From an uncultured Bacteroidaceae bacterium (GTDB lineage: Bacteria > Bacteroidota > Bacteroidia > Bacteroidales > Bacteroidaceae): 38,582 bases of DNA. The notes below the pieces were generated by a model. That model had not been told where the DNA came from. It saw only the letters and a list, made by a program, of their open reading frames with translations, and did not search any database. The stretch covers positions 1-38,582 of the forward strand of contig CALUIR010000027.1 in assembly GCA_944320785.1 (NCBI GenBank). Direction: 5' to 3'. Position numbers and translations under genes: made by a program. Positions 12,269-38,494 of this stretch are shown piece after piece (within the stretch, counting starts at the first letter, position 1; each line of letters begins with the position of its first letter).

Positions 12269-12428
12269 TAGGTTTGGTTTACGGCTGCAAAGCTAATATT
12301 TGGCAGTGGTTCCCGGCTCATGAGGCGGCATGTTCTGCAACAGGTATCCCGGCATGTTTCCATGTTTATGCAGGCGGAAACATCCAACCATCTGTTTGGG
12401 AAACCCAGATTGCCCCCATGATAACTTC

Positions 12429-12520
12429 ATCTTTCGCCTAAAGATAAAGAATTTGCCCGTATGAGCCGGGTCTCGCACACGGCTGATCCGGGCTTCCCGC
12501 ACGGGCAAGCCGGATTTTCT
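12429..12520. repeat. Intergenic palindrome element, copy 2 (single palindrome plus GC-rich module)
   Basis: One 17-bp palindrome, ATCTTTCGCCTAAAGAT (12429-12445), is preceded by CATGATAACTTC and followed by AAAGAATTTGCCCG. A GC-rich module on the minus strand near 12492-12520 (TCCGGCTTGCCCGTGC, then GGAAGCCC) matches the left flank of the 35.4-kb copy base for base over most of its length. It lies between the divergent galM and transglutaminase genes (12269-12623), where I see no coding sequence. Confidence 0.7.
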
Positions 12521-33943: not shown

Positions 33944-35374
33944 TTATCTTTTTTCTAATAGGACGACATTCTCCACGTGCTGTGTGTGGGGGAACATGTC
34001 AACGGGCTGCACGGCCTTCACGCGGTATCCCGCGTCCATCATGGCGAGGTCGCGGGCTTGCGTGGCGGGGTTGCAGCTGACGTAAACGATGCGCGAGGGC
34101 GCAGCTTTCAGGATGACTTGGACGACACCGGGGTGCATGCCGGCGCGTGGCGGGTCGGTGATGATGACATCGGGGCGGCCTTCCTGCCGGATGAAGTCTT
34201 CGGTCAGGATGTCTTTCATGTCGCCGGCATAGAAGCGTGTGTTGCCGATGCCGTTGATTTGCGAATTGGCCTTGGCGTCTTCGATGGCTTCAGGCACATA
34301 TTCGATGCCGGTGACTTGGCGAGCTTGCCGCGCCACGAAGTTGGCGATGGTGCCGGTGCCTGTATAGAGGTCGTACACCTGTTCGTTGCCGGTCAGCCCG
34401 GCAAAGTCCCTTGCTGTTTTATATAATAGGTATGCCTGTCCGGAATTGGTCTGGTAGAACGACTTGGGGCCGACCTTGAACCGCAGGCCGTCCATTTCCT
34501 CGAAGATGTGGCCGGTGCCTTTGAACACCTGCACGTCGAGGTCGTTGAACGTGTCGTTGCATTTGTTGTTGACCACGTATTGCAGCGAAGTGATTTGCGG
34601 GAAGCGCCCGGCCACGAAGGAGAGCAGTTCCTGGAACAAGGCCATCTCGTGTCCTCCCGTGATTTTGCAGGAGAGTATCACCATGAGTTCCCCGGTGGAA
34701 GAGGTGCGGACAACCAGGTTGCGGAGCATGCCTTCCTGCGTGCGGAGGTTGAAGAAAGGGTAGCGGCGTTCGTAGGCATAGTCGCGGACGGCATTGCGGA
34801 TTTGGTTGGAGATGTCGTCCTGCAGCCAGCATTTCTCAATGGCCAGCACTTTGTCAAACGCGCCGGGGATGTGGAATCCCACGGCATTCATCTGTTCGTA
34901 CACCACGTTGGCCTTCACTTCTTCTTCCGTCAGCCACCGTTTGTTGGAAAAGGTGTATTCCAGCTTGTTGCGGTAGAAACGGGTCTGCGCCGATCCGATG
35001 ATGGGGAGGATTTCCGGCAGTTCCACCTTGCCGATGCGCGACAGGTTGTCGGCCACCTGCTTTTGCTTGTACTTGAGTTGTTCCTCGTAGGGGAGGCATT
35101 GCCATTTGCATCCGCCGCAAACGCCATAGTGCTGGCAGAACGGCACGGCCCTGACAGGGCTGTATGCATGGAAGCGCACGGCGACGGCTTCTGCGTAATG
35201 GTTCTTTTTCCGGGTCAGCTTCAGATCAACAACATCGCCGGGGACGGCGAACGGGACGAAAACCACCATGTCGTCCACCCTTGCCAAAGCTTTGCCTTCA
35301 GCGGCCACGTCGGTGATGGTGACCTTCTCTAAAACAGGGAGTTCTTTCTTCTTGCGTGCCACTATATGAAACAT
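33944..35374 (-). CDS. rlmD: 23S rRNA (uracil-C5)-methyltransferase, RlmD/TrmA family
   Basis: This 476-residue AdoMet-dependent enzyme methylates C5 of a 23S rRNA uridine (U1939 in E. coli for RlmD; some relatives modify U747 or tRNA U54). An N-terminal TRAM domain (residues ~10-65) is followed by [4Fe-4S] cysteines in CQHYGVCGGCKWQC (Cys80, 86, 89), with a fourth in EKCW. The AdoMet motif is VYDLYTGTGTIANF, the IITDPPRAGMHPG motif follows, and the nucleophile Cys is in YVSCNPATQARDL, with the base Glu in HVENVV. The start at 35374 (MFHIVARKKK) was chosen over seven extra residues. A -7 box TACTTTTG is at 35393-35400 on the minus strand. Confidence 0.9.
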   Translation of the reverse strand: MFHIVARKKKELPVLEKVTITDVAAEGKALARVDDMVVFVPFAVPGDVVDLKLTRKKNHYAEAVAVRFHAYSPVRAVPFCQHYGVCGGCKWQCLPYEEQLKYKQKQVADNLSRIGKVELPEILPIIGSAQTRFYRNKLEYTFSNKRWLTEEEVKANVVYEQMNAVGFHIPGAFDKVLAIEKCWLQDDISNQIRNAVRDYAYERRYPFFNLRTQEGMLRNLVVRTSSTGELMVILSCKITGGHEMALFQELLSFVAGRFPQITSLQYVVNNKCNDTFNDLDVQVFKGTGHIFEEMDGLRFKVGPKSFYQTNSGQAYLLYKTARDFAGLTGNEQVYDLYTGTGTIANFVARQARQVTGIEYVPEAIEDAKANSQINGIGNTRFYAGDMKDILTEDFIRQEGRPDVIITDPPRAGMHPGVVQVILKAAPSRIVYVSCNPATQARDLAMMDAGYRVKAVQPVDMFPHTQHVENVVLLEKR

Positions 35375-35447
35375 GTAAAATGAAATCCGGCGCAAAAGTA
35401 CGGAAATTCAGCGAATGTGCAGGCATGGGGAGGGCAATATTCTAAGG

Positions 35448-35630
35448 GAAAAGTCCGGCTTGCCCGTGCAGGAAACCCCATTCATGCGGGCAACTTCTTC
35501 ATCTTTAGGTTAAAGATGTGCATCCTTAGCCTAAGGATATGCATCTTTAGGCTAGAGATACACATCCTTAGGCTAAGGATAAAGTTCCCACCGGGGCAAT
35601 AGGCCTTTCCCATGCGGGCAGGCGGAGGTT
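35448..35630. repeat. Intergenic palindrome element, copy 3 (four 17-bp palindromes at exact 21-bp spacing)
   Basis: Palindromes at 35501-35517, 35522-35538, 35543-35559 and 35564-35580 follow ATCYTTAGSYTARAGAT-like patterns; the last, ATCCTTAGGCTAAGGAT, is perfect. The array runs into AAAGTTCCC. The left flank carries TCCGGCTTGCCCGTGC (about 35454-35469) and CATGCGGGCAACTTC; the right flank carries TTTCCCATGCGGGCAGGCGG. These flanks resemble each other in inverted orientation. The element fills the gap between the divergent rlmD and ppdK (35375-35767); no gene is seen. Confidence 0.85.
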
Positions 35631-35699
35631 CCCATCCCGCCTTCTCACGCCTTTTTCCCGCCTGGATGCAATTTATCGCATCATTTTCCTTTAAAAAGC

Positions 35700-35767: not shown

Positions 35768-38494
35768 ATGGATAAGAAAAGAGTCTATACCTTTGGTAAC
35801 GGCCATGCGGAAGGCAAGGCTGACATGAGAAACCTTTTAGGAGGCAAGGGAGCCAATTTGGCAGAAATGAACCTGATAGGCGTCCCAGTGCCGCCCGGGT
35901 TCACGATTACGACGGAAGTCTGCAATGAATATTTTGAAATGGGGAAAGAAAAAGTCGTCGCCTTGCTCAAAGAAGATGTCGAGAAATCCATCCGGCACAT
36001 CGAGTCACTGATGAACTCCACGTTCGGCGACGTGCAGAACCCCTTGTTGGTGTCCGTGCGTTCAGGCGCACGCGCCTCCATGCCGGGCATGATGGACACC
36101 ATCCTCAACCTCGGCCTGAACGATGAAGTAGTGGAGGGGCTGGCATGCAAGACGGGCAACACGCGTTTCGCATGGGATTCCTACCGCCGCTTCGTGCAAA
36201 TGTACGGCGATGTGGTGTTAGGGATGAAGCCCGCCAACAAGGATGATATCGACCCCTTCGAGGAAATCATCGAGGACGTGAAGGCCGAAAAAGGCGTCAA
36301 ATTGGACAACGAGTTGGAAACAGGGGACCTGAAAGAACTGGTCGCCCGCTTCAAAGCCGCCGTGAAGGCAAAGACCGGGCAGGATTTCCCCTCCAACGCT
36401 TACGAGCAACTGTGGGGTGCCATCTGCGCCGTGTTCGACTCGTGGATGAACGAACGCGCCATCATCTACCGCAAGATGGAAGGCATCCCCGCCGAATGGG
36501 GAACGGCCGTCAACGTGCAGGCCATGGTATTCGGCAACATGGGCAACACTTCCGCCACCGGCGTGTGCTTCTCGCGTGACGCGGCCACCGGCGAGGACCT
36601 CTTCAACGGCGAATACCTCATCAACGCCCAAGGCGAGGACGTAGTGGCCGGCATCCGCACGCCCCAACAAATCACGAAAATCGGATCGCAGCGTTGGGCA
36701 GACCTGGCAGGCATCCCAGAAGAAGAACGACAGGCTAAATACCCGTCCATGGAAGAAGCCATGCCGGAGATTTACAAAGAGCTGGATGCGCTCCAAACCA
36801 AGTTGGAGAACCACTACAAGGACATGCAGGACATGGAGTTCACCGTGCAGGAAGGGAAATTGTGGTTCTTGCAGACCCGCAACGGCAAGCGCACCGGCGC
36901 GGCCATGGTGAAAATCGCCATGGACCTGCTCCGCCAAGGCATGATTGACGAAAAGACCGCATTGCAGCGCGTGGAACCGAACAAGTTGGACGAACTGCTT
37001 CACCCCGTGTTCAACAAAGAGGCCCTGCAACGGGCAAAAGTGCTGACACGCGGGTTGCCCGCTTCACCGGGCGCAGCAGCAGGCCAAATCGTGTTTTTCG
37101 CAGAAGATGCCGCCGACTGGCATGCGGCAGGCAAGCAGGTGGTGATGGTGCGCATCGAAACATCGCCGGAAGACCTGGCCGGCATGGCGGCAGCCGAAGG
37201 CATCCTGACCGCGCGCGGCGGAATGACCTCGCACGCAGCCGTTGTGGCACGTGGCATGGGAAAATGCTGCGTGTCAGGCGCAGGGGCTTTGAACATCGAC
37301 TACAAGAACCGTACGGTGGAAATAGACGGCACTGTGCTGAAAGAAGGCGACTTCATCTCCATCAACGGCAGTACAGGTGAAGTTTACCTCGGCAAGGTAG
37401 AAACGAAAGCAGCCGAATTGTCGGGCGACTTCGCCGAACTGATGAAGCTAGCCGACAAATACAGCCGCCTGCAAGTCCGCACCAATGCCGACACGCCGCA
37501 CGATGCCCTTGTGGCACGCAGCTTCGGCGCAGTGGGCATCGGGCTTTGCCGAACGGAACACATGTTCTTCGAAGGCGAGAAAATCAAAGCCATGCGCGAA
37601 ATGATTTTGGCAGAAACGCCGGAAGGCCGCAGCAAGGCTTTAGCCAAAATATTGCCGTACCAGCAAGCCGACTTCAAAGGCATTTTCAAGGCCATGGCCG
37701 GCTACCCGGTGACCGTCCGCCTGCTTGACCCGCCTTTGCATGAGTTCGTTCCACACGACTTGAAAGGACAACAGGAAATGGCTGATGCAATGGGCGTAAG
37801 CCTGCAATACATCCAACAACGTGTGGAATCATTGTGCGAACACAACCCGATGTTGGGGCATCGTGGCTGCCGCCTTGGAAACACTTACCCGGAAATCACC
37901 CAGATGCAGACACGTGCCATCTTGGGCGCCGCGCTCGAACTGAAGAAGGAAGGCGTGGAAACTTATCCTGAAATCATGGTTCCGTTGACCGGCATCCTTT
38001 ATGAATTCCAAGAACAAGAGAAAGTAATCCGTGCAGAAGCCGAAAAGCTTTTTGCCGAAGCAGGCGACCGCATCGACTTCAAGGTGGGTACCATGATTGA
38101 AATCCCGCGTGCCGCACTGACGGCGGACCGCATAGCTTCGTCAGCCGAGTTCTTCTCATTCGGGACCAACGACTTGACTCAAATGACGTTCGGCTATTCA
38201 CGTGATGACATTGCTTCCTTCCTCCCCGTTTATCTGGAGAAAAAGATTCTGAAAGTTGACCCATTCCAAGTACTTGACCAAAACGGAGTGGGGCAATTGA
38301 TTCGCATGGCCACTGAGAAAGGCCGCAAAGTCCGTCCAGACTTGAAATGTGGCATCTGTGGCGAACACGGCGGCGAACCTTCATCTGTCAAATTCTGCCA
38401 TAAGGTCGGCTTGAATTATGTCAGTTGTTCCCCGTTCCGCGTGCCGATTGCACGTCTGGCGGCGGCGCAGGCTGCGATAGAGGATACTCTCTAA
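35768..38494 (+). CDS. ppdK: Pyruvate, phosphate dikinase
   Basis: PPDK interconverts pyruvate + ATP + Pi and PEP + AMP + PPi, linking glycolysis and gluconeogenesis; in anaerobes it often works in the glycolytic direction. The 908-residue protein has the N-terminal ATP-grasp domain (VYTFGNG, LLGGKGANLAEM, SVRSGARASMPGMMDT). The swivelling phosphohistidine domain follows with GGMTSHAAVVARGMGKCC (His489, and the Thr two residues before it that regulators phosphorylate in plants). The PEP/pyruvate barrel ends in CGICGEHGGEP with Cys864. All key residues are present. It is a single-gene unit with strong promoter and terminator, downstream of the palindrome array. Confidence 0.98.
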   Translation: MDKKRVYTFGNGHAEGKADMRNLLGGKGANLAEMNLIGVPVPPGFTITTEVCNEYFEMGKEKVVALLKEDVEKSIRHIESLMNSTFGDVQNPLLVSVRSGARASMPGMMDTILNLGLNDEVVEGLACKTGNTRFAWDSYRRFVQMYGDVVLGMKPANKDDIDPFEEIIEDVKAEKGVKLDNELETGDLKELVARFKAAVKAKTGQDFPSNAYEQLWGAICAVFDSWMNERAIIYRKMEGIPAEWGTAVNVQAMVFGNMGNTSATGVCFSRDAATGEDLFNGEYLINAQGEDVVAGIRTPQQITKIGSQRWADLAGIPEEERQAKYPSMEEAMPEIYKELDALQTKLENHYKDMQDMEFTVQEGKLWFLQTRNGKRTGAAMVKIAMDLLRQGMIDEKTALQRVEPNKLDELLHPVFNKEALQRAKVLTRGLPASPGAAAGQIVFFAEDAADWHAAGKQVVMVRIETSPEDLAGMAAAEGILTARGGMTSHAAVVARGMGKCCVSGAGALNIDYKNRTVEIDGTVLKEGDFISINGSTGEVYLGKVETKAAELSGDFAELMKLADKYSRLQVRTNADTPHDALVARSFGAVGIGLCRTEHMFFEGEKIKAMREMILAETPEGRSKALAKILPYQQADFKGIFKAMAGYPVTVRLLDPPLHEFVPHDLKGQQEMADAMGVSLQYIQQRVESLCEHNPMLGHRGCRLGNTYPEITQMQTRAILGAALELKKEGVETYPEIMVPLTGILYEFQEQEKVIRAEAEKLFAEAGDRIDFKVGTMIEIPRAALTADRIASSAEFFSFGTNDLTQMTFGYSRDDIASFLPVYLEKKILKVDPFQVLDQNGVGQLIRMATEKGRKVRPDLKCGICGEHGGEPSSVKFCHKVGLNYVSCSPFRVPIARLAAAQAAIEDTL

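Follow-up and report, generated by a model that had tools for sequence, protein, structure and literature searches.

In REP/BIME repeats and their RAYT transposases, one gene per genome lies beside a private palindrome, of which there are many dispersed copies. In ParB-parS and other centromere-binding systems, palindromic sites are located upstream of the gene encoding the binding protein, with possible nucleation and spreading. The architectural proteins IHF and HU, and wrapping of the LrpC type, are characterized by a DNA-bending body, phased AT/GC flanks and a shape-like conservation of purines and pyrimidines. The clades of HU proteins were reportedly analysed by Burroughs et al. in 2017. 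The HU protein PG0121 of P. gingivalis binds an inverted repeat of 77 bp, located ahead of the capsule operon, in preference to a control 77-mer (PMC3969353).

Here we report the analysis of a 38,582-nucleotide stretch of DNA (the window) from an uncultured Bacteroidaceae bacterium, in which four palindromic units lie between the rlmD and ppdK genes, and of related arrays in this genome (G000) and its relatives. We consider it probable that the array between rlmD and ppdK is one genomic copy of a binding array private to P0001, a member by profile score of the HU-HIG family (PF18291, TIGR01201; solved relative 4FMR, BVU_2165 of Bacteroides vulgatus), that dimers of this protein bend or wrap the DNA, that the copy at the HU gene is autoregulatory, and that the dispersed copies have an architectural role. 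In the open-access literature, we found no report of DNA sites of HU-HIG proteins, nor of these arrays paired with HU-HIG. The likeness to PG0121 is that of a Bacteroidales HU protein preferring an inverted-repeat region at its own locus; the difference is that PG0121, at ~10 kDa, is too small for the added winged helix, and that the available portion of that report makes no mention of an array at 21 bp, of a private code or of dispersed copies (PMC3969353). In distinction from REP/RAYT elements, the linked gene encodes an HU-winged-helix protein and the four units keep a fixed 21-bp register; moreover, a search for the Y1-type transposase (PF01797) gave matches in E. coli and five other controls and none in the G000 assembly, which is 84% complete, so that a REP/RAYT system is unlikely. 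The arrays differ from ParB-parS systems in their some fifty dispersed sites, their private codes and the lack of a shared neighbour beside the HU genes (50 loci), and from IHF/HU and LrpC-type sites in their strict quadruple palindromes and paralog-specific spelling. A CRISPR array was rejected, as the linkers are 4-bp RYRY sequences instead of unrelated spacers and the units are near-palindromic and four in number.

The rlmD-ppdK array (35501-35580) is composed of four 17-bp palindromic units, given here on the plus strand: ATCTTTAGGTTAAAGAT (35501-35517), ATCCTTAGCCTAAGGAT (35522-35538), ATCTTTAGGCTAGAGAT (35543-35559) and ATCCTTAGGCTAAGGAT (35564-35580), at spacings of exactly 21, 21 and 21 bp. 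Four 17-mers at an exact 21-bp period had been described in the first-pass annotation and are borne out, the unit pattern having nine matches in the window at up to three mismatches against 0.21 expected, with none of 100 shuffles reaching nine. The four units thus stand as described, but the element is larger than had been noted, extending with its flanks over approximately 35424-35657. The left flank (~77 bp, 35424-35500) has a 22-bp period that fades outward, and the right flank (~77 bp, 35581-35657) is phased as its mirror image; neither is assigned to a strand. The phasing was read from the column profile of 46 aligned copies, and the ends were set by analogy with the relative CASEGC, the one genome in which conservation ends sharply: its flanks carry A-tracts on the left and T-tracts on the right that stop near -77 and +157, which gives an element of ~234 bp.

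The array is placed between divergent neighbours, rlmD on the minus strand (33944-35374; TIGR00479 RlmD, E 1.6e-102, NCBIfam) and ppdK, encoding pyruvate, phosphate dikinase, on the plus strand (35768-38494; TIGR01828, E 0, NCBIfam). Two further elements are present in the window. One, a three-unit array written in the same code on the plus strand (82-140), adjoins a minus-strand ORF ending at 298, near the contig start. The other is a contracted element (region 12400-12470), in which one plus-strand unit (12429-12445) is embedded between the same kind of flanks, with AACTTC on the left and AAAGAATTTGCCCG on the right.

The G000 assembly comprises 2.57 Mb. A genome-wide search at up to two mismatches returned 221 unit matches and none for the reversed pattern, and the purine/pyrimidine pattern identified 164 adjacent unit pairs. 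Full four-unit arrays, all spaced 21/21/21, were found in 46 of the 50 sources (49 fetched stretches and the window). Together with the reduced elements of three units (L071), two units (L067) and one unit each (L065 and L072), and the two further elements of the window, they bring the total to at least 52, a lower bound obtained with 40 of 65 candidates scored, so that more elements are possible. Elements seem to shed units in steps of 21 bp, both at 12400-12470 of the window and at L065, L072, L067 and L071. A gene caller that scores dicodons, trained on these loci, places all 46 full-array cores between genes, with no called gene nearer than 78 bp on either side; an earlier gene calling, since replaced, had put 27 of the 46 within short or over-extended ORFs. 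The flanking genes are divergent at 20 of these arrays, tandem at 21 and convergent at five, and 41 of the 46 arrays lie upstream of at least one gene.

Beyond this genome, the two-unit pattern occurs in 7 of 201 family genomes (G000 included), and a scan of genome contigs located at least 91 matching loci in at least 16 named genomes, among them G014 (the same as SDWH), G023 and G109. Four-unit chains account for 72 of the 82 chains in the 80 of these 91 loci that were scanned. A gene was called on both sides of 79 of the 88 arrays of named relatives, the other nine arrays and two more at locus edges being set aside; none overlaps a gene, and 15 of the 79 are nearer than 80 bp to one. The first-pass annotation had proposed a search of the genome and its relatives for units at 21-bp spacing, with random spacing or a location mainly inside genes as the contrary outcome; all 138 spacings within the 46 own arrays and all 240 within the scanned loci of named genomes measured 21 bp, and every own full-array core was placed between genes. 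Viral contigs contained no match to the two-unit pattern, and a viral origin was rejected for this reason. Judged from sequence, the rlmD-ppdK site is positionally conserved in a different genus: its counterpart in G014 (SW299), at L130:2419-2498, is written in the spelling of that genome.

The consensus of the 46 aligned copies is ATC YYY A R S Y T RRR GAT, the units being joined by 4-bp RYRY linkers. The purine/pyrimidine cells of the core conform in 2023 of 2024 cases, the fixed cells in 1461 of 1472 and the centre cells in 182 of 184; a related pattern had served to find the copies, which bears on these counts, and the linkers, which lie outside that pattern, also conform fully. Pairwise differences outside the centres amount to 14,635 transitions versus 135 transversions. 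The same tendency is seen in the two arrays that G000 has in common with G001, a member of the same genus, where 22 changes separate the cores of one pair and 16 those of the other, all 38 being transitions, and the 60-bp flanks contain 24 transversions among 63 changes, a count inflated by the ungapped comparison, in which indels are counted as changes.

Paired base changes preserving the symmetry of the palindromes had been read in the first-pass annotation as a sign of selection, and this claim failed. Within the units of the 46 own arrays, there is no excess of Watson-Crick pairs (1221 of 1472 versus 1231 expected, z -1.4), and over the full length of the core mirror positions pair less often than expected (1369 of 1840 versus 1440, z -6.4). 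The own linkers avoid self-complement (z -4.9, -2.9 and -4.3), and mirror pairs in the own flanks are low (z -3.6). In CASEGC (32 arrays, one of 33 being left out for more than eight mismatches), depletion recurs in the core (z -5.8) and in the units (z -3.7); the depletion of linkers and flanks in the own genome is absent there (z -0.5 and -0.7). The mirror positions of the core shun true base pairing in the 46 own and 32 CASEGC arrays, as if long perfect palindromes were selected against. A core that is purine/pyrimidine-symmetric, yet not a true palindrome, fits double-stranded DNA that is read partly by shape, and there is good support for the view that the conserved form would be double-stranded DNA rather than hairpins. 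The further proposal that the units are helically phased double-stranded sites for a dimeric protein, not RNA hairpins, is well supported by the fixed spacing, the intergenic location, the avoidance of pairing over the core and the existence of a plausible dimeric DNA-binding partner whose gene is preceded by the same array.

This partner emerged from a clustering, across 16 genomes, of all genes located up to 2.5 kb from an array. In five genomes, a member of one family, HU-HIG, is found 78-140 bp from an array, which in every case precedes the start codon. Other recurring families are a SusC-like outer-membrane family, so named by eye (six genomes, 81-2325 bp), and two more in four genomes (119-2461 and 119-861 bp); these three are taken for large common families. 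The G000 member, P0001 (212 aa, G000:C20:7481-8116), is preceded by an array of the same code as the rlmD-ppdK copy. It belongs to HU-HIG by its match to PF18291 (E 7e-20, 71.8 bits, cut-off 26.2), and also matches TIGR01201, HU_rel (E 7.7e-30, 104 bits, cut-off 68.6). Its AlphaFold2 model consists of an HU body and a C-terminal winged helix (mean pLDDT 87, pTM 0.56). Foldseek ranks 4fmr, from B. vulgatus, first among its matches (E 2e-4, TM 0.43), ahead of HU proteins and winged-helix regulators at weaker E-values.

Homologs of P0001 are present in 106 of the 201 family genomes, and HU-HIG matches number 7 to 12 per genome in three genomes. No neighbouring gene is common to more than 3 of 50 HU loci, and an operon partner of the HU gene was rejected on this count. 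HU-HIG homologs also occur on 14 plasmid records from Bacteroides, Phocaeicola and Parabacteroides (e.g. NZ_OY725932.1:14447-15061), with a best identity of 45.4% among the matches listed (10 of the 14), and on two phage records at 28.7 and 26.8% identity; their occurrence on plasmid records suggests that the protein family can travel.

Arrays are a recurrent feature upstream of these genes. For the best 30 homologs, upstream purine/pyrimidine matching at period 21 was above all 200 shuffles in 25. For the best 69, a scan of 450 bp at periods of 12-40 with a threshold of 49/59, from which L267 had been dropped for want of a tblastn hit, revealed a phased array in 55 (period 21 in 45, 22 in five and 23 in five) and none above threshold in the other 14; the ten at 22-23 bp include some direct repeats. 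The coding control of the same 69 homologs gave no arrays, and a background of 338 kb of G001 gave 11 of 743 windows (1.5%) at periods 20-24 and 16 at any period, some of these being themselves arrays beside HU genes. The spelling of the palindrome differs among homologs, as in ATCCAAAGCCTTTGGAT (G152), AATCAGCAGTGCTGATT (G180) and AATCCACACTGTGGATT (G067).

The pairing of a particular protein with a particular code is well supported at the sequence level. All 16 named array-bearing genomes encode a P0001 homolog at E <= 1e-8, and in 13 of them the same code is found upstream of it, at no more than eight mismatches over 68 positions; one of the 13, B. propionicigenes, is circular and not independent, because its HU array is the only array listed for it. 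In the cultured commensal Bacteroides clarus YIT 12056, an ortholog with 55% identity to P0001 likewise has this code upstream (L120). DXCV has a near-variant code upstream of its P0001 homolog (11 mismatches), and DXCK has no P0001 homolog with the same code upstream. Arrays of other homologs stand at 18 mismatches or more. The window's code accounts for 82 array pairs in G014, but it is found upstream of none of the six HU-HIG genes examined there, one of which (C17, at a contig start) has just 145-200 bp of upstream sequence. A same-code HU gene was likewise not found in G001, G005 and G133 (85%, 75% and 99% complete), which have one or two arrays each.

When 68 arrays are compared, similarity of code rises with identity of the proteins, in a modest correlation (rho 0.26, reached in 0 of 500 permutations): the code is common to 78% of 23 protein pairs at 70% identity or more, and to 1-4% of pairs below 50%. 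This comparison left out 11 of 100 HU loci (no hit, short or N-holding sequence, or identical protein) and 21 of the remaining 89 proteins, which had no array at 47/59 or above. No protein segment stands out in it as the reader of the code.

The arrays at HU genes were also compared with the motif TAnnTTTG, which we take to be the Bacteroides -7 box consensus. It is present within 110 bp upstream at 27 of 68 HU loci versus 2 of 68 coding controls, and of the 24 loci with an array end in range, 15 have the box 21.5 or 42 bp from that end, to within 2.5 bp (shuffle mean 4.1, with none of 5000 reaching 15), in a test that counts related sequences several times. The HU-gene array is thus often in register with the putative promoter. 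An odd TTTACGCT centre recurs across many orthologs in the outermost unit of the HU-gene array (L206, L276, L278, L282 and L288).

Several codes are, by the pattern matches, dispersed in their genomes. Unit pairs of codes other than that of the window, forward/reverse, numbered 23/31 in G138, 10/9 in G180, 6/6 in G152, 3/3 in G194 and 1/1 in G208, where the single pair sits at the HU gene, with no pairs in three of the eight genomes of this first set of searches; a second set gave 64/67 in G067, 10/9 in G014 and 8/6 in G045, and none in three of six genomes. The second paralog in G000 has a code of its own, found in three arrays that include the one at its gene. Among 24 HU-HIG or HU genes of G000, G001 and G014, an upstream repeat of at least 49/59 with a period of 20-24 bp was found for 11, a count that missed L350 and L352, whose starts, like that of L351, were set too far upstream and whose arrays are visible as L221 and L224. 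HU-HIG genes of other subfamilies have upstream arrays at 22 or 23 bp (L345, G000:C39; L353, G000:C13; L356, G001:C7; L357, G000:C42; L349 and L359, G001), in which some units look palindromic (TTGCACGTGCGTGCAA) and others are direct. At L347 (G014:C63), a 151-aa HU-HIG gene is preceded by TTTCTGCACA-like 10-bp repeats with an R/Y match of 59/59 at lag 20.

In the mechanism that we propose, P0001 would combine an HU/IHF-type dimerising body with a C-terminal winged helix, and one dimer would read one 17-bp palindrome via its two winged helices. We infer such sequence-specific binding by an HU-HIG protein from the linked arrays. Four dimers, 21 bp apart, would then occupy one face of the helix, and their HU bodies would bend the DNA at the four sites; the binding may spread over the phased AT/GC flanks to form a single curved or wrapped particle of ~234 bp. 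The array at the promoter of the HU gene itself would close an autoregulatory circuit, and the dispersed intergenic copies, including that between rlmD and ppdK, would function mainly as architectural sites, for bending, domains or partition. Binding, function and the stoichiometry of four dimers are predicted from these data, and wrapping and architecture are suggested by the DNA pattern in itself. The dispersed copies might be relics.

A rather unlikely alternative is that the dispersed copies are a MITE-like non-autonomous mobile repeat of ~234 bp that merely contains the HU operator, so that the HU protein need not act there. The comparison with G001 could be read in this way: six matching pairs are found there versus 164 in G000, the stretches matching own loci L026, L037 and L073 have no array, and two arrays are common to both in place. 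The ends look sharp in one relative, and REP/RAYT systems follow the same logic of one gene and many palindromes. Against mobility stand the shared-neighbour count at HU loci (at most 3 of 50), which is not a transposase search as such, the absence of a Y1-type transposase from the own assembly, and the transition-only core differences of the two orthologous pairs, which imply that the copies stay under constraint. Element ends and target duplications cannot be read in G001, because the surrounding intergenic DNA is too diverged to align.

It is comparably doubtful that the arrays form an ordinary regulon, in which the HU-HIG protein would be a transcription factor controlling the genes beside each copy. 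The predominance of arrays upstream of genes, the register of HU-gene arrays with the -7 box, the counterpart of the rlmD-ppdK copy in another genus and the large SusC-like family near arrays in six genomes would all suit such a regulon. Opposed to it are the other neighbours in the own genome, which look mutually unrelated by eye, and the distance of at least 78 bp between cores and genes. A role specific to ppdK or rlmD, as the first-pass annotation had implied, is not supported either: the array is one of at least 52 copies, and it lies ~140 bp from the -7-like box of ppdK, versus 21 or 42 bp at HU genes.

DNA gyrase and LrpC wrap DNA, and the four dyads with A-tract phasing led us to consider gyrase or an Lrp/AsnC octamer as a general machine using the arrays as wrapping sites, with an indirect link to HU-HIG. 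Although ~234 bp of phased AT/GC sequence with four dyads would suit a wrapped octamer, this reading is very improbable, as spelling varies from one HU-HIG paralog to another, in step with the protein. A search of G000 for Lrp/AsnC genes gave two clear cases and one sub-threshold hit, with no tie to the arrays: ~11.4 kb separates the gene at C3:23771-23989 from the closest of the listed arrays (C3:35424), and no listed array falls on C12. The octamer was accordingly rejected and replaced by the link to HU-HIG. That the array acts as RNA or cruciform hairpins (a terminator, attenuator or recombination site), as the near-palindromic form of every unit and matches of sub-threshold miRNA models to the region might suggest, is hardly credible at all and was rejected, since the covariation tests detected no compensatory pairing in the units and depleted mirror pairing over the core in two genomes, 20 of 46 copies lie between divergent genes, and no Rfam match scores above gathering.

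The reading that we favour, in which the rlmD-ppdK array is a copy of the private binding array of P0001, may be extended to the whole family, tentatively and with less than even confidence. HU-HIG would then be a large Bacteroidales family of self-addressed chromatin proteins, in which each paralog reads its own purine/pyrimidine-coded array, builds on it a ~234-bp nucleosome-like particle of four specific dimers and multiplies its address, with several mutually blind systems per cell. If the dispersed copies are bound, gut Bacteroidales would possess a site-specific chromosome architecture, one that we have not found described. In combining transition-only evolution with avoided base pairing, the arrays are also a natural case in which the shape of DNA may be what is read. 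Through these arrays, HU-HIG proteins are linked by sequence to specific, recognisable sites, with a code that is readable and can be tested paralog by paralog.
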